Shown: positions 2,796 through 63,764 of the stretch, in pieces
Layout: every line of letters starts with the position of its first letter
How positions within the stretch are numbered: the stretch's first letter is position 1
From: Albula goreensis
Taxonomy: Eukaryota; Chordata; Actinopteri; Albuliformes; Albulidae
Assembly (NCBI GenBank): GCA_022829145.1
Contig: CM040742.1
Span: 10,169,131 to 10,233,130, forward strand
Direction of reading: 5' to 3'
Length of the DNA: 64,000 nt
The notes under the pieces: generated by a model
Told to the model about the DNA's origin: nothing
Seen by the model: the letters and a program-made list of their open reading frames with translations, nothing else
Databases searched by the model: none
Program-made: the position numbers and the translations under genes

Positions 2796-4359
2796 CACTG
2801 CTCAAAAAAAATAAAGAGAACACTTAAACAACACAATGTAACTCCAAGTCAATCACACTTCTGTAAAATCAAACTGTCCACTTAGGAAGCAACACTGATT
2901 GACAATCAATTTCACATGCTGTTGTGCAAATGGAATAGACAACAGTTGGAAATTTAGGCAATTAGCAAGACACCCCCAATAAAGGAGTGGTTCTGGAGGT
3001 GGTGACCACAGGCCACTTCTCAGTTCCTATGCTTTCTGGCTGATGTTTTGGTCACTTTTGAATGTTGGCAGTGCTTTCACTCTAGTGGTAGCATGAGGCA
3101 AAGTGTACAACCCACACAAGTGGCTCAGGTAGTGCAGCTCATCCAGGATGGCACATCAATGCAAGCTGTGGCAAGAAGGTTTGCTGTGTCTGTCAGCGTA
3201 GTGTCCAGAGCATGGAGGTGCTACCAGGAGACAAGCCAGTACATCAGGAGACGTGGAGGAGGCCGTAGGAGGGCAACAACCCAGCAGCAGGACCGCTACC
3301 TCCGCTTTTGTGCGAGGAGGAACAGGAGGAGCACTGCCAGAGCCCTGCAAAATGACCTCCAGCAGGCCACAAATGTGAATGTCTGCTCAAACGGTCAGAA
3401 ACAGACTCCATGAGGGTGGTATGAGGGCCTGATGTCCACAGGTGGGGGTTGTGCTTACAGCCCAACACCGTGCAGGACCTTTGGCATTTGCCAGAAAACA
3501 CTAAGATTGGCAATTCACCATTGGCGCCCTGTGCTCTTCACAGATGAAAGCAAGTTCACACTGAGCACATGTGACCGACGTGACCGAGTCTGGAGACGCC
3601 ATGGAGAACGTTCTGCTGCCTGCAACATCCTCCAGCATGACCGGTTTGGCAGTGGGTCAGTAATGGTGTGGGGTGGCATTTCTTTGGGGGGCCGCACTGC
3701 CCTCCATGTTCTCGCCAGAGGTAGCCTGACTGCCATTAGGTACCGAGATGAGATCCTCAGACCCCTTGTGAGACCATATGCTGGTGCGGTTGGCCCTGGG
3801 TTCCTCCTAATGCAAGAAAATGCTAGACCTTATGTGGCTGCAGTGTGTCAGCAGTTCCTGCAAGACGAAAGCATTGATGCTATGGACTGGCCCACCCGTT
3901 CCCCAGACCTGAGTCCAATTGAGCACATCTGGGACATCATGTCTCGTTCCATCCACCAACGCCACGTTGCACCACAGACTGTCCAGGAGTTGGTGGATGC
4001 TTTGGTCCAGGTCTGGGAGGAGATCCCTCAGGAGACCATCCGCCACCTCATCAGGAGCATGCCCATGCGTTGTAGGGAGGTCATACAGGCACATGGAGGC
4101 CACACATACTACTGAGCCTCATTTTGACTTGTTTTAAGGACATTACATCAAAGTTGGATCAGCCTGTAGTGTGTTTTTCCACTTTAATTTCCAAGTCCAG
4201 ACTCCATGGGTTAATAAATTTGATTTACATTGATAATTTTTGTGTGATTTTGTTTTCAGCACATTCACCTATGTAAAGAACAACGTATTTAATAACATTT
4301 CATTCATTCAGATCTAGGATGTGTTATTTCAGTGTTCCCTTTATTTTTTTTGAGCAGTG
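2796..4359 (+). mobile_element. Tc1/mariner-type DNA transposon, near full length, inactivated
   Basis: The element is 1564 bp. Its ends are inverted repeats beginning CACTGCTC followed by eight A and then TAAAG; left and right ends differ at only a few positions over about 35 bp. TA dinucleotides flank both ends (2794-2795 and 4360-4361), the hallmark of Tc1/mariner insertion. Inside is a decayed transposase on the plus strand. The family resembles a Tc1-like element repeatedly found in teleost genomes. Intact ends mean the copy could in principle be moved by a transposase supplied from elsewhere. Confidence 0.95.
3048..4115 (+). pseudogene. Tc1-like transposase, broken by indels, stops and a catalytic change
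   Basis: Two open segments in different frames make up one transposase. The N-terminal part (3048-3413) carries the helix-turn-helix DNA-binding region. The C-terminal part (3432-4115) carries the DDE nuclease, with LFTDESKF for the first Asp, SVMVWGGI and SPDLSPIEHIWD for the third acidic residue. Damage includes a small deletion near 3380 that shifts the frame, in-frame stops near 3430 and 3507 when the family frame is followed, and a further one-base loss near 3510. The second catalytic position reads MQENARP, where this family normally has Asp-Asn, so Glu replaces Asp. Some changes are C-to-T at former CpG sites, as expected for an ageing methylated copy. Confidence 0.93.
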
Positions 4360-13193: not shown

Positions 13194-14125
13194 CAGACAG
13201 AGAGAGATAAACCTCCTTGTGTTATTTGGGGCAGAGGTTAAAGAGGAACAAGGTAACTTCTCACTATCACAGAGCAAGCCAAAAAAGAGCAAAACTGCCT
13301 TTTAAATACCATCCAATTGATAACAACAGATGGACACAGAGGAAAGAGACATCTGAGAAAGAGAGGGACAGGGAGAAAAGAAGAGAGAGGGAGAGAGAGG
13401 AAGAGCAATACCCTCACCTACATGAGTGACAGATGGACAGAGAAGGAGGGACAGACAGAGAGACGCACCTTGTCTTCACAATGTCCACTGGCATGGACGC
13501 TGCGGTGGTGACCAGTCCACTGATCATGCTGGCACAGAAGTGGCACAGAATGTCATCTCCGAAATAACCTGAGAGAAAACGCAACATCGTTATTGAAATA
13601 CAGAACGCCATCACAGAAATGCAGAATATCTGGGAAAAAGGACATTATAACAGAAAAACCTTGAGGGTGAATCGGTGAAATTCAGAATTTTACCACCAAT
13701 ATATGGAAGATTACAAATGAGAACCTAAATAACCATTATTAAAAATGGACTCATAATTCTGAGAATACCCTGAGAGAAAAGACATTTAAACATAACTGAA
13801 TTTCATTGAAAGCGAGAAGCAAGTGGGTGGGTATTACAGAGAACAAATGGGCAAGGCTCCAAGTTTGCAACGGCAGGGTTGTGAAGAAGAGAGGGCAGGG
13901 TTAAGGCAGATGAGAGGGCGGGGTTAAGGCAGATGTGGTTGGGCATTGGCTGGGGACTGGCAGGATGGTTGTGGAGTCTTACCTGTGTCTAGAAGGGCCT
14001 GTTTAGACTGGGAGTAGGATGCCAGCTGGGCAGCGTTCACTACCACAGCCCGAGCCATGGTGGGGATGCAGCCCTGATACACACAGATAAACACAGTCAT
14101 ACACACATATACACAAATACGCACA

Positions 14126-14203
<78 letters not shown>

Positions 14204-17200
14204 CACACATACAACAGCACTGAAACACAGTCATATACACACATATACACAAATACACACACACACACATATATATATATACAGATAAACACAGTCATAC
14301 ACACACATACACAAATGCACACAAATATATATACAACAGCCCTGAAACACACAGATAAACACACTCATACACACATATATACATGCGCACACACAGATAA
14401 CAAATTTGAGAAAGAGAGAGAGAGTGAGAGAGAGAGCTTGCTCACCCTCCAGAGTGTGGGGATGCCCTCCTCACGGGTGATCCTGATCAGGGCATTAAAC
14501 ACATTACTGTACCCCCTCCTCTGATCCGGGGGCAGGCTGGGGGAGAGAGGGAGGGGTTACTCAAACACCAAACCAATCAGCACCTTCTGATTCATTGAAT
14601 AAATTTACCTCATAATTAAAGTACAACACAATCACTGGTAGAACTAAAAACTCACACTCTATTTCAAATTCTGTATGAAATTTATGTCCATCCCTAAACT
14701 AAAACTCAATCTTGCATCAACAAGCTTTAAGTACACAGTGTTCTGAAAACATATATATGTCATAGAGTCACAAGACATTCACTGGACAAAAATTCAAGCT
14801 TTCTAATCATCAATTTCTATTTGTCGGACTCAGAAGTGTCCAAAAAGGACACATGATGGATATTTTATAATGCTGAATGTGTAAAGCTGATCTGAGTTCA
14901 GTGGTCCCTCCCCCTCACCGGCCATCGGCGGTCATTCGGATGAGGGCCACCTCTGCGGGGGTCCCCACAAAAGCGCCAGTGGCCCCCGCGGTCATGCCGA
15001 TCAGTGCCTTCATGAAGAAGTTTGGGGGTGTCCCGTCAGCCTTGGTCATGCGCTCAAACAGCACGGTGTAGATCCCCAGCCGAGTGGTGGTGTAGGTGGC
15101 CTGTCTCAGTAGCCCTGCGGAAAGGCTGGGTGGCCCGGGGGGGGAGAGTAAATGGGGTTATTTCACCGTGAAGCAGTGTGATTCATCCACCATAACGGTG
15201 TTAGATATGTGGTTTATACTTGTCAGATGGTCAGGTTTTGTGACTTACCTGCTGTAAATGCAGTTGTGTAATGGTAAAATGCAGGTTGTTTTATGCTTAA
15301 CTGAAGCTTTTAGGTAGGCATGGCGTTTTATGTGGGGTAGAAAAGGTTGCTTTATGGTTAAGTGGTTTACTCACTCTAGATGCTGTTGTTTTACAGTAAA
15401 GCTCACAGCAGTTTATCCAGTGCACATTTGATTAAGGTATAGCACTGTGGTTGTTTTGAGTTTAAAGGGAGTTGTTTACCTGGTGTAAATATGGTTGTTT
15501 TATGGTAAAATGCAGCTGTTTACCAGGTTTGAACTTTACGGTAAATAACTCTGGAGTGGTTTAGTGCTTAAACATGGTTACTCGGTTACTCACCCGGTGT
15601 AGATGCCGCCGACTCCCTCGTTGCGCAGGATGCTGGCTAGCGCATGCAGGCTGGTCTTGTACTCACGTGCCTTCGAACCCTGACCGCTCAGCTGCATGCG
15701 GTTCTTCACCAGGTCCAGAGGCTGCACAAACACCGTCGCCCCCATCCTGCACAGACAAGACAAAAAGATGGAGAGCTTATAATACTGCAGGTTAATGACG
15801 GGTAATTATTAAGTATCAGGACCCCAAACATTTGTGAAGCTGCAATCAGCTGTCTGTCACCTCTTTCAACCAATCAAAAAGTGTTGTTATTTACATCATC
15901 TCAATCAGTTAGGTTGCTAATTGTAGCTCTGTAGCAGCGTGGTACTCTATTTTACTTAAAATTGCTTAAGTGTAACGTTACAAAAACTGACCTAGTAAAC
16001 AGGACCCTTTGTCAGCCAGATCTGATCACAGTCAATTCACAAATCTCTACAAACATAGCAACAATTGCATCAAGTTTTGCTCCAGTTACTACAGTTACTC
16101 ATGGCAGCCAAACCCTCATACTCAGTCACTTGTGCTTACTGAAGGGCTACAGATGCTGGTGCACCACACATACACATCCAGCTCAGCAAACAGCTAGGCT
16201 AGGGAACAAAGACAGATACATAAAACTCAACAAGAAACTAGGCCAGGTTACAAAGGAACACTTTAGGCTTGGGCTGGCAAACCCTGATACTGGAGAACTA
16301 CAGGGTGAGATTGGTTTTTGTTTTGACCTTAAAAGGAACAACTAATTCAGACTCAAAAATGAGCTGAGGTGAGTTAAACTGTATAACTGATCAACTAACT
16401 ACTGTGTAAAAGGAAAAACCTTGAAGCTCCGCAAGCCCTGTAGCTCTCCTGGTCCAGGGCTGAAGTAGTCAGTGTTATCCAGTCAGCAGAGGAAATGAAC
16501 TGAAATTCAATTTCAATTTTTTCAATTTGAAAAAACTACCCACAATGCTTTATGGGCATATGCCGCAGTTACTGATTGAATAGGATTTAAACTCATTTTC
16601 AGAGGTGTTTCAATAAATATATAGGGGCACCAACCCTGAGGATGGCCGCTGATGGGTGACGATGCTGAGGATCATGGGATGTGTAAAATGTCTAAGGTTC
16701 AAGGTTCTCTATACAAAACACAGTAAAGTACAGATACAAAGTCAAACATGCAGGGAAATAAAGGGGATGCTCAGATGCTGTGTGAGAATATAAGATAAAA
16801 GGAGTAAAAATTTCAAAAGTAAAAAATGCCATTGATGAGGCTGTCGGTGTGCTTCGACCGTAGTGTGTACTGTGATGAGGTGGTTCTGTATTTATGGAAT
16901 ATTACCTTTATAAAGCCATAAACGCTGCCTCTACCCTTACACTAAGACACTGAGACATAGGAAGTGGGAGGACAAACACATTTCAGGGGACAAAGGAATG
17001 AGTTATGGGAAGTATAAATATATACACATAATGATGTATACAAATACATACAAAAACCTTCAACAAACATGCACGTTCATACACACAAGCACCTGCCAAA
17101 CACATATCCACACATACGGGCATTATGCGTCTGTCACACACACAAAAGCAAATACTCACACCCACACATGCACATACAGACTGTAGAAAGGTGAGGTGCA

Positions 17201-24759: not shown

Positions 24760-27406
24760 GTGTTATGTCCTGATTATGAAGTCTTAATGTAGTTATTTCT
24801 AGGACCTACCATGGAAAGTGTTTCCACATCTTTAAAACTGAAAGAACACCATGTGAAATCTGAATGTCTATGTTTCCCAGTCTTTTCGCAAGACAAATAA
24901 CTCAATTCATTGATACTTTTTTTAGAGCTAATGGAAGTATGTGACTACCAGAGGCCAAGCTGATATTAACTCACTGTTTTAAATCAATGTCCTTGGACAG
25001 GAAAGTTGTGAGTTTGAGTCCCAGATGAAAAGGGTATGGCAGTGCGTTTCAGACCTTTTCCTAGGTCAGATTTTTTTTTTGGCAGGGATTAGCGGTGTGC
25101 TCACAGATAAAAGCCTGGCCCATACTCTCCTGGTGATGGTTTTTAAAGGGATGGGAGGGGAAGAGTGAGCAGTTCGGCCAATGTGAGCTTCATTCAGTCC
25201 AATGAGACAGCAGTGGGTGATGTCATTTTACACAGACAGGAACTGACCTCCCCTTTACAAGTCAAAGAAAGTAGGCCCTATTCAGTCGTCCACTTTCAAG
25301 CCATGAGCTCCATTCCATCAAATTCAATTACATGCTTATTCATATCCTGTAACATTTCTATTTCAATTTGATTTTCTCCTGAACAAAAACACTTTCTTAA
25401 TTTCATTGTCATTTCATTCATAAAACCATTTTAGGAGTCCATTTTAGGAGTTCTTGCTTATATTATTATAATGCTACACAACCAATTGAGACAGTTCTTT
25501 CATACTGATGGTTTATAAGCAGAGTTACTCAGTGGCATCACAGCAGTATCTCTGTGATGTCACAAAAGTCTCCAGGTGAAGTCCGAATAATAACTCTGTT
25601 ATGTCACAACTGTGATGTAAGATAACATAGTTAAAGCAAAAAATGCTGAAGCCCCTCAATAACAGCCTTCTATTCAATGAAAACATATTTGTCAACTTAA
25701 AGTCAAACCATAATAAAATAAATAGACAGTGTTTTAGGAGAGCGCTACATTTTTGTGTTTGGGTGTTTATACGTATCCGCAGACCTACAGAACATATGAA
25801 AACAAGTTCAATTTTCAGGTTTTCACACCCAAAACCGAAGAATCAATGAGAGGCCGGGAATGTAAAATAACACATGAGGTGAGAGTGTAAATGAAAATAA
25901 AAACAAAACATAAAATTTCACTATGACTAATGCTATTATTTGCTGTAACACATGTATTAGTCTCCAGGGCAGTGCTGGTGACCCCATTCCACTCTACACA
26001 TGCTGCAGTGGGGGTACTTCCACAGCTGGCCCCGAGAGAACTAGGTCCCCCTACTGGTGTGGTTGAACCTGGTATCCTCTTTGTGGGTGAACAGGGACCT
26101 GGAGGGGGATTTTGTGAAGATCTGTCCTGGAAAGATACCCCTCCCCACCTCCTCCATCCTCTTCTGCTGCTGCCAAACAGATGGACCTCCCTCACCAAAG
26201 CTCTTAAGAGTTCCGTTCTCAGGGTTTGGTGGGATTGGAAGGTCTTCTTTCTAATACAGCATCTTTGTCCACAGTGCCCCTAGTGGAGCCCTCCGAGATA
26301 AGAGGGTTTTCTTAGGGGTAACCATTCCAACTTCTCTGACAACAAGCCACCTGTTCCTCTCAGAGCAGTCCAGACATGCACTCTCATTCTTCTAAAAACA
26401 AACAGGCCACTCTTGTTTTCTGTCTCTCGACTGACTAAAAATGACTTTCTTAAAGGGAAATGTGCAGATTTTATGCACAAAGAGCAAGGTGCCACCAGGG
26501 GTCTGGGGGAGTCCAAGAGCGGCTTCATTCATTCAAGAGGGATGCGGAAAGCTCTCTGAGTATACTTCAATCAATTACACTGATGAAATTGAACTACAAC
26601 TGTTCAGGATAAAAACTACAAATAAAATGGCAGTGACCCAACCTGGCAGTGAACCTGCAAACTATTGCTTAGAAGTTCTCCTGCTCCTAAATCAGAAATC
26701 ACCAATGCGATCATGCTTCTGTAAAAATGGCTGCCGCCTTGTCCTCGTTGCGGCCTCCTGGCTGCAGAATGAGATTGAGGGTTGGAGCGGCTCCATGATG
26801 ACATATTTGTGGTGCGGTTATTTTCTTGAATGAAGTCTCATGATCCACACAAATCTCTCATGTCAGCTGTGGGCTGCCCAAGCCTACAGCCAGTCTCCTG
26901 TACTTCCTGTTTCCTGTTTACACAGGAAGTAGAGTGAGACCCCATGGAGTTTGCTGAGAAGCTATGTCCATCAGTCCCCCCAAAGACTACCCAACCATTC
27001 CAACAGTTTCTTCTCCTTTATCAAGTCTTTCTACTGCAGAAACCTCTCCTACCTTGTTTGAACATTTTGAACGCTTCACTCTCTTTGTGTGTGAACGGAA
27101 ATGATTGTCAGGTACCAGTTTCATTCACACAACCGTCCTGTGCTTTTTGCTGTTTCTCATTAAAAATGATCTTTCTTCTCTAATGTATGAGGTTAAGATA
27201 AGTATCTATTTTTCATTCATTTTTTGTAAAAGGTATAATTGGATGTGCGATAAACACTGGAAGCGCAATGTTGAAGAGGCATGCGAGCAGTAGGTTAAAT
27301 ACGAGGGTGGAGTATAGAGGGTGCAATCCTGTCCTCTTCTCCTCTCCTCTCTCTTTTCTTTTCTCTCTGTGATGGCAGCTGTCTCTTGGCCCCTCCCTCC
27401 TCACGC

Positions 27407-30400
27407 TCATGCGCGGGACTCTTTCTTAGAGTGCGGCTTGTTTCCCAGAAGGGAGTCTATCTCACTCACAGTCTGAGGAGTCATTTGGGAAAGGATCTGA
27501 AAAAGAGAAAACAGAACAGAGAAGACAGCATCAAGCACTGTTCAGCCTCTCCATCAGTAAACCAGCCAGATTGCTTTGCTTTTAAAAAGTCCACCCATGG
27601 ACAAGCCTTGGAAATTAGAATACGCTATAAATGTTTTGTTGAATCTCATTTGATCTGTTGTTTACTAGCAATCTATTTTTGTATGTCTGTACCTAGCAAA
27701 ACAACATGAAATAAAATAGATATTGTACTGATGTCTCATGCGACGTTAAAAATGAGCTCTTTGCTGAAGTTTGTGCAGAGCCTTAATCTGTTATAACCCT
27801 CTGAAAAGAGGCTTCAACAGAGCCAGGAACCGCTGGACAAATACTGTTCGAACTGGGCCCTGCCAAAAAAAAAAGAAAAAAAATACTCTTCTGTTAGGGG
27901 TAGATACCACCTATAAATTCAAACACTGATATACACATAAAACTACATACAAGCAGAAGTACACAGTTCAGGCAAATGCGCAGAGGAAAAGCAGGTAGAC
28001 ACTAGCAAATATGTGGGCCTATGTGGGATTGATTATTGCACTGAATTTTACCCTCAGGGCTCCCAGATTTTCCACCAGCTGATCAGTGTTGGACACACCC
28101 AGAAGGACAGAGCTCACACCTTCACTGCGCAGACACCAAGCTGAGAGAAAGAGAGAGAGAGGGAGGGGGGCCAGGAGGGGTGAAGGAGAGAGAGACAAAA
28201 AGATGGAAAATGGAATGGAGGGAGAATGATTGAGAGAAAAGAGGAGTAAAGAACAAGAGGAAAACAGACAGGAAGGAGGCAGATGAAGGAGAGGACAGGA
28301 GAGGAGGTAAAGGGAGAAAGAGGGGGATGGGGAAGTCAGTAATTCTGCAGAGGGGTATTTTATATCTATTACCTCTCCTGTAAACAGAACCTGTGACCTG
28401 TAGACCAGGGCTTGCACCCGAGGGATTGCAGGTTCAAATAAAAATCGGATGTCGTGTCCTTGATCAAGGTCCTGAGTTATGCCTGTGCAAATCCCACTCC
28501 ACAAACAGATAACACATATGCTTGCATGATTCTCTTGCTTATTTATGAGATCCCCCTTTCCTTTAATTAGGTCAACAAATAATAAATAGATGAACCTGAC
28601 TGATTGGATGAGGCTGCTGAGACTAGCTGGGCTAGAGCACGGTCACGCAGACAGACTGCTCTGCAAGTGAAGGCCTCTGTTGATGGAGGTGTAGGTCAAT
28701 ACTCAGGTCAAAGGATGTAAACGTGCAAAAGCCAAGGACTGCTCCATAATTTAAACACATAAACACATGCACAGACACACACACACACACACACACTGTC
28801 CATACCAATAGCCAGCTGTGCAGCAGTGCAGCCCATCCGGTCAGCCAGCAGGTGGAGCTCTTTGACTTTGGCCAACTGTCTCCGCCCCTCCTCACTGTTC
28901 ACACGCTCCTTCAACCAATGGTAGCCCTGGAAAGGGGTGGACGGACACACTGTAACTGTGACTGACAGCCTGCTATTGACCAGAGTGGTTATTGGTTAAT
29001 GAACGTTTGGGGGTATTTCTTCAGCAGGCGGTTGCTAGGAGCCTGACCTTCATGGCAGCTCGGGAGCACTCAGGAACACCGTCATTGTACTTCCCTGTGA
29101 TCAGCCCGCATGCCAAAGGAGACCAGGTCATTGCTCCCACACCTGCAGACAGACAGACAGGTATGAGGCACAGGGAGACAGACAGACATTCAAGTATGAA
29201 GACAGACACAGTTACGGGAGGTTGGGGGGGCAGGATTTGGGTTTTAAATGCAGAATACTACTGGACATGTAGCAGCCATCTAATAAATAACTGGCATTTT
29301 TTCATTTTTGGTGCTGTAGCCAATCACATCATAGAATGAAGTTATGAGAATGCTGTACTAACCAATCTTGTGGTAAAGTTCTGGAAGCTGCACCTCCACT
29401 TTGTCCCTCTGGAAGTAGTGGTACTCAGCCTGCTCACAGACGGGCGGGATCAGGTTGAACTGACGTGCTACAGAGTACGCCTCCTGGTGGCCGGAGGACA
29501 GAACAGCAACATTAATCAAAAGTCAGCCCAGCTCCATAACCATTATACCACATTTTCATGTATGATATGTTAATTATTCATATAAGGGGGATGGAATGAA
29601 AAATAATTTAACGGGCTTGGGAATGACTCATCCAGCTCAGGCAAGACCTTGGGGTCCAGTGCGTGGATGAGCCCCACTGTTTGTAATTAAATCTCGGGCC
29701 GTACCAGTGCCACTGCAGCCAGCAATGCTTTGGAGAACAACCAGAAAGTTTTTTTTCATTTACTGCCGAAACTGTACAGTTTTTACCATCCAATCTTGAG
29801 GTACCCCCTTGGGGCTTCCATTGAGTTTATTTTTCTCTCAATTCGCTATGATTTGCTGTGTGGCACAACGTTCTGGAGCTGTGTGTCTGAGAAAGAGAGA
29901 GAGGATAGTGCACAGATATTATTTTTTTTGCAAGCTGCTGAAGATGGGGAGTTTTGCAGAAATTTACCGGCAATTGGAGCTGCAGTTTTCCCCGCATATC
30001 TTCTATGTATAGAATATTAAATAACTGGAGGGGGAGAAAAAGGTTTTATACCACACACATCTGTGCCCTCTCAGTTGCTGCATTGGTTTTGCACTGCTGT
30101 GAAAATTATGTGTCATTCCATAGCAAATTAAAGGTTTATCCACGGGAGGGAAGCTGCCCCAGCTGAGGACATGAGCTAGAACACCCATAAAAACCACTTC
30201 TGCTTGCATATGGTGGGACATATAGTCGGTTCTTACAGCACGGCTGTTACATGGGACCCCATCTCCCTTAAATATGGTGCATTCACTTCAGCTGCCAAGC
30301 AGGCCACTCTTCAGCTATGCCTCGTATAGCCAGTGAGCCTGCAGCCGAATGCCCGTAAGCACTGTGCGTACGGTTAGGGCTTGAGGTTTCTTTCCGTTTT

Positions 30401-31854
30401 TAAATCTTAACTATACCTGTATGAAACTGAGCTCAAAAAAGATTAGTGATGGCTGGCAAGCAATGATCATTAGCGACATGTTCTGAAATCTGACACATGA
30501 CTGGTTGGAGTATATCCAAGCATATGTGCCGGGAAAAAAACTACATTTAACACAACTTTAGCATATCTCACAGCTTCGATTCAAAGAAATCCAATTATGT
30601 TAGCGACAGCATTAGCATTGTTTCATGCGTACCATGAAATCAATTGTTGAATGCTAAATTAACCACAAGCACTGTTCTGTTAATATGTGTCATAATGTTC
30701 ATTAATAAATGCATTATGATGCTGTTATGAAATTTGCCATTAACGGTGAGACAGATTCATGACAGGGTATGACAGATCCTATTTTGTGCTTATAATAATG
30801 TTATGTATAGGGCTGCACGATATGGGAAAAAAATGCAATATGTGATTCATTTATGGATTATTGCGATGGCGATAAGCAATGCCATAAACCAAAGATTAAT
30901 GTATTTAATCACTTAAAATTGTTTTTCAGTATATTTAGAACCCGAAACAATGACATGTTTCCTGTTCTTCCAGTGTAAAGAAACGTCACTCCCAACTTCT
31001 CAGTGACCAGTAAATCTTTACTGCATATCATTTCTGATTGAGCGTGGTCGTCACGTGTTTAACCGAAATACTGCCACACAACTGAGGTGCTCCTTTGTTT
31101 AGGAATCAGATCACCTTCTGCAACTGCAGCCGCTGCTTTGCCCTCAGTCCGACTCATTTCCATGACTAGTGCGCTAAGAGTCCCTAAGCTTCACACTGCT
31201 CCCTGCTCATCTTGCACATGACATCATTGGTGTGCATGCCCCCGCATCAGAGCCAATGGTGCGAGCACAACTATCCTCTGCTCTCAACATTTCCATACAG
31301 TTGCCAGCTAATTAAATTATTGCATTGCGATATGCTTATTGTGATAAATTTATTTGCGATATTTTAAAAAATGTGCTATATTTTGCAGCCCATGCATAAG
31401 TCAAGTGTTACTGTTAAATGTGTAATTGGAAAGGGTTTGCCAGGGCATAGGTTATAGCTTTCATTGGGAGTGATGTTAATTTGGGAAAACAGATCAGAGG
31501 AGAGCAAGACTTTGATTAATTGTTTTTTTTTTTGCATATTGAGTAATGAAGAATGTAATTAGTTGCTGACTAAAAGCCTGATGGGAAAAGAATTGATTGA
31601 TGAGATCATGAAGTGTCTCTGTCCTGTTATCACATGACTGTGTTACAGATACAGTTTAAAAATTCTACTGCCTGTTTATACTCCAATGGGGTGCTGGCTG
31701 GCATAAAGGGGAAGTGATGTAATGAGGGGGTGTGGCTCACCATGATCTCCATAGCACTCCAACGGGAGGTGCCCCAGTACATTGCCAGGCCCTGGTTAAT
31801 CACAAAGGTCATGGCCCGTACCACCTCTGCAACACAGTTACACCAACATCAGAA

Positions 31855-31892
<38 letters not shown>

Positions 31893-34800
31893 ACAGCATG
31901 CTCATTATTCTTCAATGACTGGCTAACTGACAGGCAGATTGACTGACTGACTCCCCCACTGACTGACTGGCTCATCCCCACACTGACTGACTCTCACAGT
32001 ATGCTGCGCTGACCTTCCATGGGGCTGTTGACATCAGTGCGGTTGGCAAAGACGATATCCACATAATCCAGCTGCAGTCTGGACAGAGAGCCTCTCAGGC
32101 CTGTGTAGGGAAAACCATTATCAGTAACATCACCATTAACACTACCCTCAGTTAGACTTAGGCCTTTTACATCATCGGTGACATCCTTGTTAACTCTGTG
32201 TTATACCTGGGCAACATCATCACTGACATCACTATTAACATTATGCTCCATTATACCTGGTCCAATAAGTACATCATCAGTGAAATCATTATTATCATTG
32301 TTGTGAGACCCCAGGTCATGGTCCGATATGACATGACATCACAAATGACATAATCCACATTTACCAAGATCAAAAGAAGGCTTTTAGTCCTGTGTTGGAA
32401 GACTACAGGGTACAGAAGAGGAGGAGGATGGGGTGGAGGAGGAGAGTGAGGGAGAGGAGGACCACTGTACCTTCAATAATGTGCTTCCTGGACAGGCCCC
32501 GCTCTGTCTCCGCCCTGCAGGAGGACAGGGGTATTGTCAAAGAACAGGATGCTATTCAAAACACTCAAGTTGCCAAAAAACATTTGCAGCCACCCTAACC
32601 CTTGAGTTTTTTTAATTTGTATAATTATGAACACATTTCAGGTATTAAGGATGTTTTTTACCCACTATCCATTTTTGAATATATCATATATGGATTCAAT
32701 TGAAGCACCTGGCTCAAGAGTATGGCAGCTCAGCTTCAACTGGGACTCAAACCAGCAACCTCTGAGACTTACAAACAGATCCCTAATAAACTTTATAAAG
32801 TGTAATGATCTTGCCATTTTCTAACCTAACATGCAAAGACACATATAAGGAATATCTTGTAACTCTTGCACACATAAGTTCTGTATACTTGATATATCAG
32901 GCCTGTGTATTTCTGGGTTACTATTGGCCTTGGATGAGCAGCAGGGGGTTCTGGTCTTCTTCCTTATTCAGCACTTAATGATTCATTAAAGCAGCTGATT
33001 ACCCATTGAGTTCATGGGCCTCCTCTGGTCTATTTGTGGTTGATTTTAAGTTGAAAACAAAAACCAGCCTCCCAGAGGCTCTCCACTAGTGAGAGTGAAA
33101 TATACAGCCCTACCTTAGGTAAGACAGCTTTTAATTACTATGTTGGAAAAGGAAAACTTTAAAGGATAAAACTGTTCCTACTCCATGATGTTTTATCACA
33201 CCAAAAAAGGGTGGAGCAATTATCTGTCATTAATTGACTTGTTTCAACCAATCAAAATGTTTTCCTCTTTACAGCAAAATACAAGGAATGGTTCAGTTCA
33301 TTGTATTTTTTGTAACACATGGTAGCTCCACCCATTTTGATGTCATAATGCCAAGTTTACCCATCATTACTCTGAACAAAGTCACTCACTGTCCTCCCCA
33401 GTAAATCTTGGTGGTCACCACAAAACTGGAGCGCCTGAAAAAGCAAAAAACAAAACACAAAGAGTCCAAACAAATCAAGTTCTACGTCACCAACCTGTGA
33501 TGTTAAATTAGTAAGACAAGTAAGAAAAGTAAAGCACGCGCTGCTTTCATCCAACATGGCGACCATACTCCACGCATGTTTCCATGGCAACAGAGCTCAC
33601 TACAGGAAGTTTGCGCAGGAGAGTCAGAATGCTCTTTAAAAAAGCATCGGAACAACATCTCACCTCCATCCTTTCTTTTTGATTATGTTCCCCAGAGTGA
33701 TTTCAGCCCTAAAGAATAAAAAATGAAAAAGAGAGTGAGAAAAGAGTAATAGACAGAATGAGAGATGTGTGTTTGCTCAGCATTTGTACAGTATGTGGGT
33801 TCACATACATGTTAACAGAGACAGGCAGTCACTAGGATCACACGACCTGTGGGCCAGGGAGTGGCTCACCTGCCAGAAGCGTACACCTCTGCCGTGTCGA
33901 ACAGGTTGATGCCATTCTCATACGCGATGGTCATCAGGCTCTCTGCCATCTGGGAGACGGACAGACAACATATGGAAGGATGGACAGACAGACACACACA
34001 CATCTGATATCGTATCTAACTGCTTCACCATGTCCAACCAAAGACACAAAGCTCAACTCAGCCTCAGTTTAATTTTCATTTATTTTGTCCTGAATTTAAG
34101 CTGGTAGATCAACTGAAAAGAACATGCTGGTGTTTGTGATGAGCCAGGGAATGAAAGTGGGCAGGGATTACGCAGTCACACGGATGCAGGGGGATGATTG
34201 GATGACCAGATGTCCACATTCAGTTTTTTTGGGAATTTGAGCCGAAACAGCACAGTTAACATCTCTACAGTCTGTAAAAGCACCATAGGATATATAATGA
34301 CCTCAGTGAGTCAGGACCTCCATTTAGCATCTCATCTGAAGGACAGCACCTCCTACAGCACAGTGTCCCCATCACTGTGCTGGAGCACTGGAGTTCTGCT
34401 TAGTCTAAAGTAAAGAGTGCCCCCTACTGGCCCATCACCAACCCAACAACAACTTGGTTTTCATATCTAACTCAGACCACACCTGATTAGCTTTCGCAGT
34501 TTAACAGGAGAAGAGTACACAGGTTTATGGCTGCCTAGCTTCAGCAGTGTGATGTGAGATCTGTACAGGGTGATATGGGCCCTGGCTGATAGGTTAATGA
34601 GACCAGGAGAGGGACAGACAGTGTTGGTGGATATATATGGTATAGCTGGATGCAAGATGGACCCACCTCGTCTGAGATCTGTGATCCGAAGGTCACCCAG
34701 GTACCTAGACACAGGGAGAGAGAAAGAGACTGCAATTCAGTCAATGGGCTTTGGCAATATGTATTAAAATGTGTCATGGCACCAAGCATACACATGAAGC

Positions 34801-35249: not shown

Positions 35250-38200
35250 CTAACTGTCCTTGCAAACACACACACACGCACACATAGGCTGTAGAATGAA
35301 GTTAACTGCTGTAATGACCCAAAGGAGAGTTCATTTCCACCAACTCTGCTATAATCCCCCCATAAGCCGGTCTGTGGCCCTCCACACCTAACATGCCTAT
35401 AATCTCTCATTCTACTGTTCCTCTCTCCTCTCCTCTGTCCGTAATCTCTGTGTTAACATCCCTGTCTCCTCTCTTCCATCTGTAATCTCTGTGGTAAAAT
35501 CTCCCTCTCTCCTGTTCGGTGCATAATCTCTGCTTTAGGAGCCCTCTCTCACCGTTTGAGTCACGCTCGGCTAAAAGCTAAAGCTCATGCTTTCAGGTGG
35601 CTCTTGGCATTAAAGCACATGCTAGCACAGCTGTGGGACCCCTTTCTGGGCGTCTGAGTGATGGGTGGGGGGCAGCTAAGGGGCGTGGCTTAGCAGGGTG
35701 TGTGAGTCTGTGATCAGCCGTACTTACCCAGACCAAGGCAGGACACACGCAGCCCTGATTTACCCAAGTTCCTGAAACGCACACAGAAACACAGTGATTA
35801 AACACACACACTAACACACACACACGCACATGCACACACACAGGTTACTGAAACACACACACACACATACACAGATTGCTAGCACACTCTCACAAACGCA
35901 TACACACACAGATATTTCTGATACATAAACATACAAAGACTACTGAAATACACACATGTTCATCCACATATAAAGGCAACTGAAACACACAAACACAGAT
36001 TACAGAAACACCATTAAGTCCCATTCTAACTGAGAGTGAAGCATGTAAACCACACTGAGATAGAGTGAAAGAGAGAGAGTGCGCCGCTGTGGATTAACAC
36101 TGGAAACTAATGCAGCTGGTCCACAATGCAGCCCAGCCAACAAACATGACCTTTGACAGGCCAGCTATAATCTGGACCACCTTCAGAGGTAATTTGTTAC
36201 ATCACATTATTCTCTCCATTATGACACACACACAGTCACACACTAACCAGCAGCTAAACCCACAGAGCAATGACAACACCAGAGCACAATGAGGCAGGCT
36301 CGCGGGGCACTAGAACACGCCAGATGCCACTGTGTTTTCACTCAGATGCGCTCCAAAGTATTTGCACGCTGCGTCTTTGTGAGAAGACAATTCCCTCAAC
36401 AGATTGTGGCGTTGTCTTTCATTGTCTCCTCTGCCAAGCCTCTGACACCAGGGGCTCGACCACACGTTTGCAACACGTTCCTCAACTCATAAGGGCATGT
36501 TTGATTTTTACACGTGCTTTATTTTAATAGTAGAGTCCCATTGAGATAAATATCTCTTCTGCAAGGGTGTCCTGTCTAAAATGCACCATACAGTACAGTT
36601 GTTTCAATGACAACGCAATTAAATTGTATTAAAAAAAGCATGGCTCGTACCTGTATCCTTCAGCCTGTAACGGGTCCACTGCATCACAAAGGGAGTGTGA
36701 CACTAGGTAAGAGGTGCACAGACTTATAAGTGAGGCAGGACACATGTCTGTAGGTGATATTGAAGGTAAGGGGTCTTCATGCTAGGATTACAGACACTGC
36801 TTGAACTCTTTAATGAAGCTCATTTAGGGCCGTACCCTCAGCACTGTTGAGACTTCCTGCATCATTCAAAAGTACTTCCCCCTCAAGGACACTGCTGTAT
36901 TGCAAAAAGTGTCAGGTATTTTCCCATGGTGCAATGCAATCTTTGGTGTGTGTTTTTTTTTTGATAAATAAACAGAAAAATTATGTGATTCAAAACAGCA
37001 TCCTATCTGGATAACTGTGAGCTGGTCTGTCAGTTCTCAGTAGCCAAACGATTCGCTCTCAAGTGCCGGATTGAGAGGTAATGCGAGAAACAGCGGTAAC
37101 GTAGCAGAGTGGGGGGTGAACACCGGCCCTGCCTCTAAAAACCAGGGAAGCATCATCTCACACCGCACCCCCCTTCCCAATTAGAGCGACAGAGCGGTGA
37201 GTCGAGGGGGGGAGGCAGCAGCTGGGGAGCGAAATCAGCGCAACTGCGGCGGGATTCTGCGCCACGTTCGCCTTTCATCTCCGCCGAGTCGCCCTGCTGC
37301 CACTACTGCCCGTGTGCTATCACCAGAAATAGCCCAGCAGAGAGCAGAGAGAGAGAGAGAGAGAGAGAGAAAGGGAATGAGAAAAAGGGGAAAATGGAGA
37401 GAAAGTGTTCGTGGGAGTGTTTATTTTCAGGCAGACAAGCCTTTATTTATTCCATCGGTTTACATCTATCTGCCTGGCTGATGCTATTTTTGGAAGCGTG
37501 GTTTTGTGTGTGTGTGTGCGTGCGTGTGTGCTTTACATGTTCACATGCGGTCGTCACGCTCAGCACCTTCAATATGGCACTCTGTGCAAGCTGATGTATA
37601 TGCTTAACACATACAGAGAGGGAGAGGGAGAGGGAGAGAGAGAGAGAGCAGTAAGACAAAGAGAGATTGTTTTTAAATCCTATGAAATCCTCAAACGCAC
37701 CAGAGCTGATCGAAAAATTAAAAATGAAAAAAAAAAAAAACAGAACCTGTGAGCCTTCCTCAGTGTTGGAAAAAAAATACTGTGGAGACAAAAATATAAT
37801 TCCTGTAAAGATTACAGATCTCCTGAAAATCTTCCATTTTCACACACAAATGCAGGCATATGCGCGGACACACAGACATGCACGCACACACATTGGTGTG
37901 GTAGGATCGCACACCTATGGATACTAACGCACAGCAGACTTGAGTAATCACTCTGCTGTGGCTGTTCACATGCTCCTGACCTGGGCTACATACATGGTTT
38001 CAGACCATGGGTATTTTCAGACTGGAATGTATGAAAGCTGTGTGACACAGGTACAGCCCAACAGAGTCAGAGTGCTGTAACACAGGTACAGCCCAACAGA
38101 GTCAGAGTGCTGTAACACAGGTACAGCCCAACAGAGTCAGAGTGCTGTAACACAGGTACAGGACAGTCCTGATAGAGCAGCATATCACACATGTGAAGCT

Positions 38201-42800: not shown

Positions 42801-44158
42801 TACTTTGTTATTTTATTTAACAGAGTTAGCACCCAAGCTAATATTCATCAGTGGTCCCTGGACATACTGTACAGAACACACAGTGATGTCATATTTTTTT
42901 TCTGAACATGCTCTGATGTCATACTGTACAGAAGTAATTCACCCACACACACAACCTTCCTCATTAACACACACATGCACAAACACAATCACACACACTT
43001 CCTCCCTCACATATACACACACTTGAATCCACACACACACCTCTCCTGAACCCAGAGGGAAATGACCACATGCTATAGGGGCCCAGAGGGGGGCGCTGAA
43101 GAGCAGTCAGCACTAGAACCATTTAGCACTGAGGGAAAGTTGCAAAGGGACTGCTGTCATTCATCAACATGATCCATTATTTAGAGAGGATCTCAATGAT
43201 GTCCAAAGAGCAATCAACCCAGAACAGACTCAGACCACGCACACACACACATGCACACGCACTCACGCATGCATGCGCGCACACACACACACACACACGC
43301 ACACACACACCCACCCACACACACAGACACACACACACACACACATATGCAGCGCACTGCCTCGGAACAGCCCCCACCCCCAGGCACTGCTCCTGGCACA
43401 AACATCAGCTCCAGATTCCTCACATCCACAAATTACAAATTCAGTGGGCAGGCAAGGCGCTAACACTGAACTGTGTGAGAGAACCAGAGCATCTCACTAC
43501 TGGGGTTTTATACACCTCTGTGAGTTTTCTAGGGTGCTCATAGGACACAAAATAAAACATTTGCTAAACCCCAAACACAGAGTGTCACAAAAACATCTTG
43601 TTGCTGGGGTGGCGGCTGGGCCTGGAGGCGGTAACATTAATGCGCGTGGGAGAACTGGAGTGTCTCACTGCGGGGTTTCTTCTCTGTGAGTTTTCCAGTT
43701 TCACACATATAGAATGTGTGATCATAACTACAGCCGTGTGTGTAAGCTAGCTACCTCAGCTAACCATAGCTTACCAGCTAGCTTAGTTAGGAGCTATCAA
43801 TGCTGTGATGTCCAAACTCATGGTATTCATTTTTCCATTGCAGCCAAAGAAACAGAATAGAATCATTCCTTTCCCCAGCTCCTCCCACACCTATCTGCAT
43901 GCCCCACCTGTCAGCTCACCTGTACTTCATACTGCTGTGTCTCCCAATGGCCTCCTTCATGTGGGCGTGTCCTTGGGTGGGGGCTCGCGAGGCCTCCCTG
44001 GCCTTGGCCAATACCAACGGCCCATTCCCGCCCTGGCTGCTGCCTCCTCCCCCTCCTCCAGCCCCGCCTCCAGGTGGGGGGGCAGTCCGGAGGCCGCAGA
44101 GTCTGTCCTCACTCCGGCTTTTCAGGTTGTGCTCTGTGCAGGCAAATGACACCTGCAT
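27407..44158 (-). CDS. kcnab3: Voltage-gated K+ channel beta-3 subunit (aldo-keto reductase fold), 14 exons, 407 aa
   Basis: Exons in transcript order: 43920-44158, 35728-35771, 34667-34704, 33870-33949, 33664-33708, 33390-33434, 32471-32514, 32014-32100, 31741-31826, 29363-29483, 29048-29142, 28806-28926, 28052-28140, 27407-27496. They sum to 1224 nt with every phase matching. The protein is a cytosolic Kv1 channel partner with an NADPH-binding aldo-keto-reductase barrel. The tetrad residues are visible as D125 and Y130 ([10 protein letters not shown]), K158 (TTKIYWGG) and N198 (VFANRTD). The N-terminus [20 protein letters not shown], with Cys7, is the Kv-beta1.1/beta3 inactivation-ball type, followed by a Gly-rich linker. 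Kcnab3 is preferred over kcnab1 or kcnab2 because of that linker, TFGSQISDE and the C-terminus [20 protein letters not shown]. Human KCNAB3 is 404 aa. An upstream alternative first exon lies at 54491-54783. Confidence 0.97.
30810..31391. mobile_element. Non-autonomous hAT-like element in kcnab3 intron
   Basis: The left end reads GGGCTGCACGATATGG and the right end inverts to GGGCTGCAAAATATAG. The interior has 'attgcgatggcgataagc' and 'ttgcgatattttaaaa' typical of dispersed hAT-like MITEs in fish. Near-identical flanks atgtata (30803-30809) and atgcata (31392-31398) are probable target duplications. It lies between the exons at 29363-29483 and 31741-31826. Confidence 0.6.
34260..34620 (+). repeat. 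Dispersed teleost retroposon tail in kcnab3 intron
   Basis: It contains 'tcagtgagtcaggacctcc', 'tagcatctcatctgaagg', 'tctaaagtaaagagtgcccc' and a downstream 'ggcccatcaccaacccaac' block, the same order as in the diverged copy at 8749-8960. It ends just before the kcnab3 exon at 34667-34704. No protein is encoded. Confidence 0.55.
36651..36745 (-). CDS. kcnab3: Candidate internal alternative first exon of kcnab3
   Basis: On the minus strand an ATG at 36745 opens 31 codons plus AG, ending at a GT donor (GTACGA). The reading begins [10 protein letters not shown] and ends LQAEGYR once the split Arg codon is completed by the common second exon. Splice phase and terminal Tyr-Arg are identical to the canonical first exon (MKYR) and the distal exon (MLYR). 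An in-frame TAG lies 13 codons upstream. A GC-rich patch at 37080-37330 could be its promoter. Against it: a 31-codon open frame is not rare by chance, the donor is not ideal, and I recognise no homologue. Confidence 0.3.
37080..37340 (-). promoter_or_regulatory. GC/CpG-rich patch inside kcnab3 intron 1
   Basis: This segment is much richer in G, C and CpG than its surroundings and lies about 350-600 bp upstream (minus sense) of the candidate exon at 36651-36745. It could be an internal promoter. The evidence is composition and position only. Confidence 0.3.
38046..38161. repeat. 35-bp minisatellite, about 3.3 copies
   Basis: A 35-bp unit containing 'caggtacagcccaacagag' and 'tcagagtgctgtaa' repeats almost without change, so it is young. 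It lies in kcnab3 intron 1. Confidence 0.9.
38330..38650. repeat. About 36-bp minisatellite, about 9 copies
   Basis: The unit contains 'tgaccactcccattccc' then 'gccacacccacaact' and is tandemly repeated with small differences. On the minus strand it gives a 115-codon Trp/Gly/Val-rich open frame that is a repeat artefact. Confidence 0.93.
39308..40142. repeat. Compound CA-rich satellite with a 19-bp interspersed unit
   Basis: Long (CA)n tracts are separated by recurring 'aaccaaacacggatacaac' (at least six copies) and, further right, by 'caaatacgcatatacatat' variants. This higher-order structure shows that blocks of microsatellite plus spacer have been duplicated together. Long open frames in all frames through it are artefacts. 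Confidence 0.92.
40820..41000. promoter_or_regulatory. GC-rich patch with Sp1-like motif in kcnab3 intron 1
   Basis: A CpG-containing stretch around 40840-40930 includes GGGGCGGGG, an Sp1/GC-box type motif, followed by a G/A-rich run. A regulatory element or cryptic promoter is possible; nothing downstream supports a separate gene. Confidence 0.25.
41455..41567. repeat. 11-bp tandem array carrying CACCTG E-boxes
   Basis: About ten copies of 'agcacctgatc' (some cacatg) lie head to tail in kcnab3 intron 1. Every unit has an E-box-type CANNTG core and, at each junction, the palindrome TGATCA. Confidence 0.95.
42548..42930. repeat. Degenerate approximately 28-bp tandem repeat
   Basis: Diverged units contain 'acactgtgatgtcac' and 'atgtccagaa' or 'ctgtacagaa'. 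Two adjacent units near 42630-42687 are nearly identical. Most others are diverged, indicating an old array in kcnab3 intron 1. Confidence 0.75.
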
Positions 44159-51939: not shown

Positions 51940-53236
51940 CAGTGAAAAAGTAATTGCCCCCCTTAAACTCAAGATGTAGTTGGACTACCCTTAGGGGCAA
52001 TAAGTGCAATAAATGTTTCCTATAACTGCTCTTTTCAGGTCCTGCCACAGCACCTCTATTGGGTTCAGGTCAGGACTTTGACTAGGCCACCAAAACACTT
52101 TCCTTTAGCTGTACAGCCATTCAGATGTGGATTTGCTTGCAGCTGCATCAGCCAGTTATCACCCAGCTTCAGCTCACACACAGATGGTCCAACATTCTCC
52201 TTAACTATCTGATAGCACACATCAGAATTCATGCTTCTGTAATGATTACAAGCCGTCCAGGGCCGGAGGCAGCAAAACATCCCCATACCATCACACTGCC
52301 GCTGCCATGTTCCAGTGCAGCCATGATGTTCTTACTGCAGAAAGCTGGATTTACTTTATGCCAGACAAAGGAGGACGTGTACACTGTAAAAAGTTCCACC
52401 TTTGACTCTTCTATCCATAGAATTTCATCCCAAAAGACTTGAGCATCATCCAGGTGCTTTTTGGCAAATGTGACACAAACTTCATCTTCATCACAAATAA
52501 GACATCTTTCTTATTGTAGAGTCATGGGCACTGAACTTAGCTGATGCTAGAGAGACCTGCAGTTCTTTGGAAGTTCTTCTGGGGGCTTCAGATACTTCCC
52601 AGATAAGGTGCTGGCACATTTTAGCAGAAATCTCAGCAGGTTGACCACTTCCAGGAAGGTTCACCATTGTTCCAGGTCTTCTCCATTTTGAGATAATGGC
52701 ATGCACTGTGGTTTGCTGGAGTCCAAGAGCCTTAGAAGTGGCTTTGTGACCCTTTCCAGACTGATGTATCTCCACAACTTTTTTCCTTAGTTGTTCTGGG
52801 AGCTCCTTTGATCGTGGCATTGTGTGTCTGGAGAAACTTTGAGGTGAATACTTCTTTCTGATAGTAAGATTCAATATATATGCTTTCTAAACTCAATGGG
52901 GCTGGTTGCAGTCAAGTCAGGCTGTGTTCAATCACCGCAATCTAATTCTCAATGAAGAGTATGTTGATCTTTTTTTGTTTCAGAACTAAAGGGCCAATTA
53001 CTTTTTGACAGGGCTTTATGAGTAATTGGTTACTTTCTTGACTGAATCAATGAAATAATGATGTAAAAACTATGCTTATAATAATGATGTAAAACTATAA
53101 GAACTTTGTTTTATGTTTGCTTGGGTTTCCCTTGTCAAACACAATATTTTATATGATTATCGGAAACCATTCAATGACAGAAATATGCAATAAATTAAGA
53201 GTTTAAGAAGGGGGAAGAAACTTTTTCACAGCACTG
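51940..53236 (-). mobile_element. Decayed Tc1-like transposon
   Basis: Degenerate inverted ends are visible: CAGTGAAAAAGTAATTGCCC on the left and, inverted, CAGTGCTGTGAAAAAG on the right. Transposase remnants lie on the minus strand. It belongs to a different Tc1-like family from the element at 2796-4359 and is older, with interior sequence missing. Confidence 0.85.
52065..52820 (-). pseudogene. Tc1-like transposase remnants
   Basis: An N-terminal helix-turn-helix part (52491-52820) starts MPRSKELPEQLRKKVVEIHQ and includes KATSKALGLQQTTVHAIISK. Downstream, a shifted frame contains KKHLDDAQVFWDE, NIMAALEHGSGSVMVWG and, further on, DVCYQIVKENVGPS. The middle of the nuclease domain is missing and several stops or shifts interrupt it, so it is non-functional. 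Confidence 0.9.
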
Positions 53237-54490: not shown

Positions 54491-54783
54491 CTGTACAGCA
54501 TAGCGGTCCGGTCGGCGGTGCAGTCCGTTAGCGTCAGGCCGCACTCGCGAAGGTAGCGCTCCAGCCTGCGGCGCTCCATCAGTTGCCGGGCCGCCTCCAG
54601 GATCTGCGAGGCCAGCACCTCCGACTCATCCCTGGGTCCTTCACTGCGGGATCCCCGCGCTCCGCTACGCGCCACAGTGCCCCCTCCTGACGAGGATGCC
54701 TTGGGCTTCTTACTGATCCCGTACAGGTCCTCCACCGAAAACTTTCCCCCTTTCCCCCCACCACCGCCTCGGCCAGAGAACAT
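54491..54783 (-). CDS. kcnab3: Distal alternative first coding exon of kcnab3
   Basis: The minus-strand ATG at 54783 opens 97 codons plus AG and ends at a consensus donor (GTGAGT). It starts MFSGRGGGGGKGGKF, continues through a Ser/Gly/Arg-rich linker, then a predicted helix (ASQILEAARQLMERRRLERY) and ends CTADRTAMLYR with the split Arg completed by the common exon at 35728-35771. Phase and Tyr-Arg junction equal those of the canonical exon. The ERYLRECGLTL segment resembles, from memory, the pre-junction region of the alternative KCNAB1 N-termini. The resulting isoform would be 425 aa and lack the Cys7 ball. GTG codons further upstream are not convincing starts. The alternative, a first exon of an unrelated gene, is less likely because no following exon fits. 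Confidence 0.75.
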
Positions 54784-61641: not shown

Positions 61642-63164
61642 ATGGCGACGTCCATGATCTCGAACCCGGCGCTAAATTTTTACAATCCTGAAGATTTAGT
61701 AGGAGGCTGGACGGGCCAGGAAGTTAGCACTGGGGTGAGTTCATTTCAGCGCGATTATGTTTTGTACATCCTTGTAAATATTTGTTCCTCTTTGTAGTCT
61801 CAGTCCATAATGTGGCAAGCTAAGGAATGAGACAGCACATCTAGCTAGGTAGTGCTTAGACTAAAGTCTTACACACGATGTCAATATTGTCCACATTAAC
61901 ATTGATAGTTATTTTAGTCAATATTTTCCAATTTACACAACGAATGCCTGCATTGTGACTGACCCAGGATAAACATATTTCTGGGCCGTAACCTACTTTT
62001 TCCGAATTAATGGCTATCTTGGGGTTTTCTCGTATGCTGATCTGGGCTAAGTTTTGGGAAGTGGTTGCAAAACACCTGCAGATACGGCTTTAGATCTTAG
62101 TTGCAAAACTGTAATAGCTAGCTTGCCGACATTGTGAGTAAACTAGCTTTGTTTTTTTTTATCATGTTTTTATGGCAGACAACGATTATGGCCGTGGAGT
62201 ATGACGGAGGTGTTGTGATCGGTGCAGACTCCAGAACCACCACTGGGTAAGGAGACCAAGGAACGTCCTGATTAGTGTTGTCATAAGGGGGTTTCATGAA
62301 ACGAGAAATGGGAATTGTCAGAAGTACCCGCCGGAGTTTATCCAATCAACTTGTTCTGCTGTGAAAAGCAGAACTTTTTGATTGGTTCAGGGAAGCCACT
62401 GTTCAGTAGCTCATTGTAGCTCCACCCATTATGGGGTTCTTCAGACCTTATTCAGCCATCAAGAGTCTTGGCTCTATTGGAAGGAGATACATTTTAAATA
62501 AAATCTCAATGCTGAAAACCCGGATCTGGTATGGATTTTAATTATGTTTGTGAAATGGGGTGAAGATTAAGTGAACAAAGTGGCATAAATGATTCTCTCA
62601 GAGCTGTCTAGCTGTCCCATTGCAATTAGAATTGTAGCTACATCTTTTTGTTGGTGTATCTTTTCAAAAGTAATACTAGCATGTGCATTTTTCGGCTCAC
62701 ACTTTCTCCCTCTCTCTCTCTCTCCAGTGCGTACATCGCTAACCGAGTGACAGACAAGCTCACCCCGATCCATGAACGCATCTTCTGCTGCAGGTCCGGC
62801 TCTGCGGCTGACACACAGGCTGTCGCTGATGCAGTCACCTACCAGCTGGGCTTCCATAGGTGAGGCCACGCCCTGCACACCAGTTCAGCCATGCACACTG
62901 TGAATCTACACCTGGTCTACTCACCTGTACTGTTAAATACAGTGTTGGTGTTTGTTCACGTGTGTGTTATTTTTGAATGAGTGAAAATGTGTGAGTATTT
63001 ACATCTATGTGTGTCTTCCTGCATGTGCTTGTGTGTGTCACTGTGCGTGCGTGCGTGCATACAGAAAGTGTCTATGCATGTGTGTATGTGTGAGTGAGCT
63101 TCTGTATGTATGTATGTGCCAGTGAGTGAAAGTGTCTAGGTATGTCTATTATGTGTGACTGAAT

Positions 63165-63195
<31 letters not shown>

Positions 63196-63764
63196 CACAT
63201 GTGAGTGTGTATCTGTATCTCTCACTCTGAACCCCCCTTCCCCCAATGTGTGTCTGAGCAGTATTGAGCTGGATGAGCCCCCTCTGGTGCAGACAGCGGC
63301 TAACCTGTTCAAGGAGATGTGCTACAGGTACAGGGAGGAGCTGATGGCAGGAATCATTGTAGCAGGATGGGACAAGAGGAGGGGCGGACAGGTGATCCCC
63401 AAAAGCATCTTTCTCTTTCGATCTGCCTCTCTCTCGTCTGTCTTTCTGTCTCTTCCCATGTACCCCTCAATTTGATCAATTTTCAGAAAACTTCTGCACA
63501 CTCTCAGTGTTCACAACACTGGCATTAAAAACCAACCTCTCTCACCCCTTCTCTCCCCCTTCTCTCCCTCCCTTCTCCTCCGCCTCCTCCGCCTCTCCTT
63601 TCCTCCCCCCATCCCCCAGGTGTACACGGTCCCTATGGGTGGGATGCTGGTGAGGCAGCCCGTATCTGTGGGTGGGTCTGGCAGCTCCTACATCTACGGC
63701 TTCATGGACTCTAACTACAAACCGGGCATGAGCAAAGAGGAGTGCCTGCGTTTCACTGCAGAGG
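61642..63764 (+). CDS. psmb6: 20S proteasome beta-1 subunit (caspase-like site), exons 1-5, 3' end beyond window
   Basis: Exons are 61642-61734, 62179-62246, 62728-62859, 63262-63391 and 63620-63764, with consistent phases and GT-AG introns. They give 189 codons plus one base; the last exon is outside the window. The product is the threonine protease subunit that cleaves after acidic residues in the 20S core. A 31-residue propeptide ends EVSTG, and the mature chain begins [11 protein letters not shown], so Thr32 becomes catalytic Thr1. Asp48 (mature 17), Lys64 (mature 33) and Arg76 (mature 45) are present. Arg45 indicates the constitutive beta-1 rather than the immunoproteasome paralogue psmb9. 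[20 protein letters not shown] is the conserved late-core segment. Human PSMB6 has a 34-residue propeptide. Confidence 0.97.

Follow-up and report, generated by a model that had tools for sequence, protein, structure and literature searches.

Kvβ1.1, Kvβ1.2 and Kvβ1.3 are all made from KCNAB1 by means of alternative N-termini. A 2026 review lists these three forms and Kvβ2.1 and Kvβ2.2, but a single form of Kvβ3, Kvβ3.1 (PMC13031570). No second Kvβ3 isoform was named in the open-access literature, among the matches listed and in the portions of text available, and RefSeq or Ensembl gene models may already predict an exon of the kind described here. The locus analysed in this work raises the question of whether kcnab3, too, has a second way to begin. 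It lies in a stretch of 64,000 nucleotides of the Albula goreensis genome (the window), in which an open, ATG-started exon is found upstream of the kcnab3 exon that encodes the inactivation ball. In all likelihood this is an alternative first exon for kcnab3 and a sister of the distal first exons in KCNAB1. If kcnab3 indeed has a conserved second N-terminus, switching Kv1 inactivation through the N-terminus would be ancestral to the family and not peculiar to KCNAB1. The finding would matter, too, for tissues in which Kvβ3 is expressed, such as the electroreceptors of non-teleosts, where Kcnab3 is reported together with Kcna5 in paddlefish, as confirmed in sterlet (PMC5429088, PMC13069148).

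Structure of the kcnab3 locus

All the kcnab3 exons lie on the minus strand of the window. The alternative first exon (54783-54491) has a length of 293 nt, comprising 97 codons from the ATG and 2 further nucleotides. It reads MFSGRGGGGGKGGKFSVEDLYGISKKPK at its start and LERYLRECGLTLTDCTADRTAMLY at its end, followed by a split arginine codon; an in-frame stop is present upstream of the ATG, and the donor is gtgagt (gtgagtgc follows the exon). The canonical first exon, encoding the ball with Cys7, is located at 43920-44158, on the same strand and 10,332 nt downstream of the alternative exon. The two first exons have very similar 3′ ends (...TAC AG/gtgagt in the alternative and ...TAC AG/gtgagc in the ball exon), and both join at 35771 to G AAC TTG GGT (NLG...), producing Tyr-Arg-Asn at the junction.

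Shared exon 2 (35728-35771), which has the acceptor tttcag, is in phase with both first exons. The spliced reading then runs through shared exons 3 (34667-34704), 4 (33870-33949), 5 (33664-33708), 6 (33390-33434), 7 (32471-32514), 8 (32014-32100), 9 (31741-31826), 10 (29363-29483), 11 (29048-29142), 12 (28806-28926) and 13 (28052-28140) to exon 14 (27380-27496), the last coding exon, which carries the stop and whose low end is arbitrary. GT-AG ends are present at 12/12 introns between these 13 shared exons. Spliced in silico to them, the alternative exon gives an open reading of 425 aa, and the canonical ball exon one of 407 aa. What the first-pass annotation had described (a 97-codon ATG exon with a GTGAGT donor, the phase and Tyr-Arg junction of the canonical exon, and a distance of 10.3 kb) is exact on every point in the coordinates and in the spliced reading.

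We take the gene to be kcnab3 from the agreement of its ball exon (SEDRLCG and a Gly-rich segment) and its C-terminus with human KCNAB3. Identity of the core alone does not discriminate kcnab3 from kcnab1, as it is 78.6% to KCNAB1 and KCNAB3 alike. In the same genome, kcnab1 loci exist separately from the kcnab3 locus of the window. A search of Pfam with the alternative exon returned 0 families, and its three matches to PDB sequences (E 0.11-2.1) were taken as chance.

A second kcnab3 locus

Conservation of the exon was assessed between two kcnab3 copies within one genome, through a whole-genome search of the 932 Mb of Albula goreensis. The alternative exon yielded five matches at E 10 or better, including the exon itself; three of these (E 0.8-4.3) were taken as noise. 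The remaining match, on contig C6 (C6:28427171-28427470), is full length and open, with an E value of 1.5e-30 and 71% protein identity. It belongs to a complete second kcnab3 locus (C6:28427171-28458830), in which the alternative exon is followed, 11.9 kb downstream, by a ball exon and then by the core exons in order. The copy keeps the ATG, the phase and a GT donor (GTGAGA); it differs in length from the window exon by 6 nt, with the same frame open in both. The cores of the two loci are identical at 310/324 residues. The conservation that the first-pass annotation asked for, of both frame and donor, is thus seen, with purifying selection (see below), in a second kcnab3 gene of the same genome.

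Upstream of kcnab3, the window contains exons of what is presumably a psmb6-like proteasome subunit (61642-63763, plus strand). None of four exon queries derived from these (0/4) matched in 70 kb surrounding the copy on C6. Therefore psmb6 gives no synteny support for duplicate loci, and the duplicate status of the two kcnab3 loci rests on their common gene structure.

The presence of the exon at the same place in the C6 locus, on another contig, bears on whether it belongs to kcnab3 at all. It could be the first exon of an unrelated minus-strand gene upstream of kcnab3, given the 10.3 kb that separate it from the ball exon. Besides its position at C6, however, the phase and residues of its junction are those of kcnab1 first exons, and only transposase-like remnants were recognised between it and the ball exon: a by-eye, non-exhaustive inspection of stop-to-stop frames there turned up nothing that looked like an exon from a different cellular gene. 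We regard an unrelated gene as a very improbable origin of the exon.

Selection on the alternative exon

Between the window and C6 copies of the alternative exon, dN/dS is 0.193 over 95 codons (dN 0.214, dS 1.11), with a bootstrap range of 0.09-0.34 (995/1000 resamples usable) and with dS, at about 1.1, near saturation. The corresponding ratios are 0.074 for the ball exon and 0.026 for the core (seven of its 13 exons, 231 codons); of the two first exons, the alternative one is the faster to evolve. In its last 47 codons, 9, 6 and 18 differences fall at codon positions 1, 2 and 3, respectively. The ratio over these codons is 2.19 and 2.05 in the other two sense frames; the antisense frames of the exon give 1.21, 0.39 and 2.11, one of which (0.39) is also low. 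When 4 kb around each copy were compared with the filter off, the strongest block of similarity extended from 20-29 nt past the ATG to 5 nt past the end of the exon. The weaker matches mostly stack on the same few C6 stretches and resemble simple repeats.

The rate of evolution, faster than that of the ball exon, would be compatible with a relic, conserved but non-productive or rarely used, and kept through overlap with a regulatory element. This we consider very unlikely, given that the codon-pattern constraint tracks the proposed frame, that the strongest conservation ends with the exon, and that the flanking matches are mostly repeat-like pile-ups. Constraint in the frame and conservation that stops at the exon boundary fit a protein better than a DNA element, and purifying selection on an encoded peptide is the best explanation for the conservation of the alternative exon.

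Relationship to the first exons of kcnab1

A genome search with the kcnab core located further kcnab loci on contigs C24, C11, C14 and C12. The loci on C11 and C24 are kcnab1, and their first exons were assigned to types by means of human N-termini. A region of 100 kb was compared at each of the two loci, each region including a 5,000-base run of N. The C11 locus has, in order, a β1.3-type exon, a β1.2-type exon, the β1.1 ball exon and the core; the C24 locus has a β1.2-type exon and the ball exon ahead of the core; in its 100 kb, which include the 5,000-base N run, no β1.3-type exon was found. The order of distal exon, ball exon and core is therefore common to both kcnab3 and both kcnab1 loci.

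Searched against these 200 kb of kcnab1 sequence, both kcnab3 alternative exons found as their best matches the β1.2-type exons of C11 and C24 (E 0.002-0.027); the β1.3-type exon of C11 came next, with E values of 0.025 (window exon) and 0.23 (C6 copy). The alignments run flush to the splice junction. The region around ERYLRECGLTL, for which a comparison with the alternative N-termini of KCNAB1 had been suggested, thus aligns with the β1.2-type exons of both kcnab1 loci and with the β1.3-type exon of one. In a profile comparison with hhalign, the two kcnab3 alternative exons matched the three kcnab1 distal exons in the final 32 columns, at a probability of 94.9 (E 4.7e-8), while their probability with the four ball exons was 1.0. 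Of the 98 residues, the final 24-33 carry all of the homology, and no alignment is possible over roughly the first 65.

How specific this likeness is was gauged by scoring the last 24 residues, anchored at the junction. For the alternative exons this score is 39-59 with the kcnab1 distal exons of the fish and 30-50 with human ones; with ball exons it is 20-27 (kcnab1) and 10-14 (kcnab3). A null set was assembled from every AG/GTRAG site on both strands of 334 kb of the genome that had 30 or more open codons of the correct phase before it (n=35). When the three kcnab1 distal exons are the reference, the highest of these 35 candidates are the window exon (50) and its C6 copy (51), followed by the kcnab3 ball exons (6.0 and 5.3), with the best of the remainder at -3.7. 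Scored against the two kcnab1 ball exons, they are headed by the kcnab3 ball exons (40 and 29), with the alternative exons third and fourth (27.5 and 26.5) and the rest at -2 or below. When the residues of the alternative exons were shuffled with the final Tyr-Arg fixed, 0/100,000 shuffles reached the distal score for either copy.

The kcnab3 exon therefore has much in common with the Kvβ1.2 and Kvβ1.3 first exons of KCNAB1, which are likewise long, lie upstream of the ball exon and enter the core in the same phase, and whose ends are homologous to its own (YLxxxGL[ST]LxDxTxxxTxMxYR-like). It differs from them in an N-terminus that is rich in Gly and Lys and that does not have the N-terminal Cys8 of Kvβ1.2. 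Some of its final, pre-junction residues are also found in the Kvβ1.1 ball exon of KCNAB1 (the score of 20-27 above), but it contains no ball sequence, and the profile comparison with ball exons was negative.

A short junction-proximal motif, [IL]SLxES/TxxxTGMxYR-like, is common to the Kvβ first exons, which suggests that the alternative ones derive from one another through old duplications. The date of that event for the kcnab3 exon is a separate matter. Within kcnab1, distal and ball exons also score 37-52 with each other, about as much as the distal exons do with the kcnab3 alternative exons; an independent duplication inside kcnab3, after the KCNAB1/KCNAB3 split, has therefore to be weighed, the distal likeness being then mainly the common junction motif. 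In a tree of ten sequences over 33 sites, the alternative exon stood beside one β1.2 exon and the distal exons did not separate from the ball exons, as such a duplication would allow. A copy made within kcnab3 is nevertheless hard to reconcile with scores of 39-59 against kcnab1 distal exons and 10-14 against the ball exons of kcnab3 itself, with the contrast between the two profile probabilities, and with an exon order that agrees with that of kcnab1. We judge the duplication within kcnab3 to be unlikely, though with a small real chance.

We favour, with good confidence, the reading in which the exon is truly an alternative first exon of kcnab3 and the counterpart of the β1.2/β1.3 exons of KCNAB1, and in which it would descend from alternative first exons that existed as a set before the KCNAB1/KCNAB3 split. 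The first-pass annotation had proposed that N-terminal promoter choice predates this split. Homology and exon order speak for that proposal; the homologous region is short and the 33-site tree lacks the distal-versus-ball split, and the early origin is thus supported, not proved. We infer transcription of the alternative exon, its splicing, promoter, time of origin and function from its sequence.

The N-terminal tail and its possible function

The alternative exon would have its own promoter, presumably upstream of it, and its transcript would be spliced in phase to shared exon 2, replacing the ball exon to give a Kvβ3 of 425 aa. In both copies, the first 80 residues of the encoded tail contain neither Cys nor His. 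An AlphaFold2 model, for which five first exons served as the alignment, features a helix at residues 53-80 (block pLDDT 79-91) and a short helix at 85-93, the remainder being of low confidence (mean pLDDT 64.8). Kvβ3.1, the ball isoform, comes from the same gene and the same 13 downstream exons; it begins with the ball MQVSxACTEHNL, with Cys7, where the alternative form has instead 80 residues free of Cys and His and a predicted helix of 28 residues.

The human start of Kvβ1.3, MLAAR, bears a short resemblance to the MF[S/A]GR of the kcnab3 tail. The likeness is suggestive only; the fish β1.3 exon reads MLAASR, with the arginine at position 6. Arg5 of Kvβ1.3 is reported as a PIP2 site in a review (PMC3456799), which also quotes another study finding Kv1.5/Kvβ1.3 insensitive to PIP2.

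An isoform without the Cys7 inactivation ball had been predicted for this gene. The absence of Cys7 holds, but the tail need not be non-inactivating, since human Kvβ1.3, which has no N-terminal Cys, still inactivates Kv1.5, according to two sources (PMC7239824, PMC13031570). In the first of these, Kvβ1.3, which is without N-terminal Cys and His, is haem-insensitive, while Kvβ1.1, Kvβ1.2 and Kvβ3.1 are sensitive (PMC7239824). By analogy, the lack of Cys and His in the first 80 residues of the tail leads us to propose a redox- and haem-insensitive form of Kvβ3. The predicted helix 53-80 may stand beside the core as a stalk, from which the flexible, Gly/Lys-rich N-terminus (MF[S/A]GR...) might reach the Kv1 pore or the membrane. 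A channel with this long Kvβ3 would then be without the redox and haem sensitivity of Kvβ3.1, as Kvβ1.3 stands beside Kvβ1.1. The mechanism as a whole is put forward tentatively, with somewhat more doubt than confidence.

A ball-type exon at kcnab2 and a possible ancestral set of first exons

The loci on C12 and C14 are presumably kcnab2, the latter to judge from the kcnab2 signature GGQITDE; the core on C14 reads GTWVTFGGQITDE. In the 10 kb examined upstream of this core there is a ball-type exon resembling that of Kvβ1.1 (MQVSFVCTDH...TGMKYR; C14:10190333-10190542, plus strand). It lies 8.1 kb upstream of the equivalent of shared exon 2 and has an in-phase GT donor. Mammalian Kvβ2 is not known to have a ball exon, nor mammalian Kvβ3 a distal exon. 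Kvβ2.1 is described as having no inactivation peptide (PMC7239824).

If the kcnab2 ball-type exon is real, the three paralogues would each have retained a portion of the first exons that their ancestor had. An ancestral vertebrate Kvβ gene may then have had both distal, Cys-poor first exons and ball first exons, of which its descendants keep different subsets (in this fish, the distal exon in kcnab3 and the ball exon in kcnab2), and promoter choice in kcnab3 would toggle between redox/haem-sensitive and insensitive inactivation. This wider scheme, taken as a whole, we put at somewhat less than an even chance.

Other features of the window

Stretches similar to what we take to be a mitochondrial carrier of the SLC25A11 type are present at 13418-15700 on the minus strand. 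Two remnants, presumably of Tc1/mariner-like transposases, are found at 3006-4115 (plus strand) and 52229-52886 (minus strand). The latter begins approximately 1.6 kb downstream of the donor of the alternative exon.
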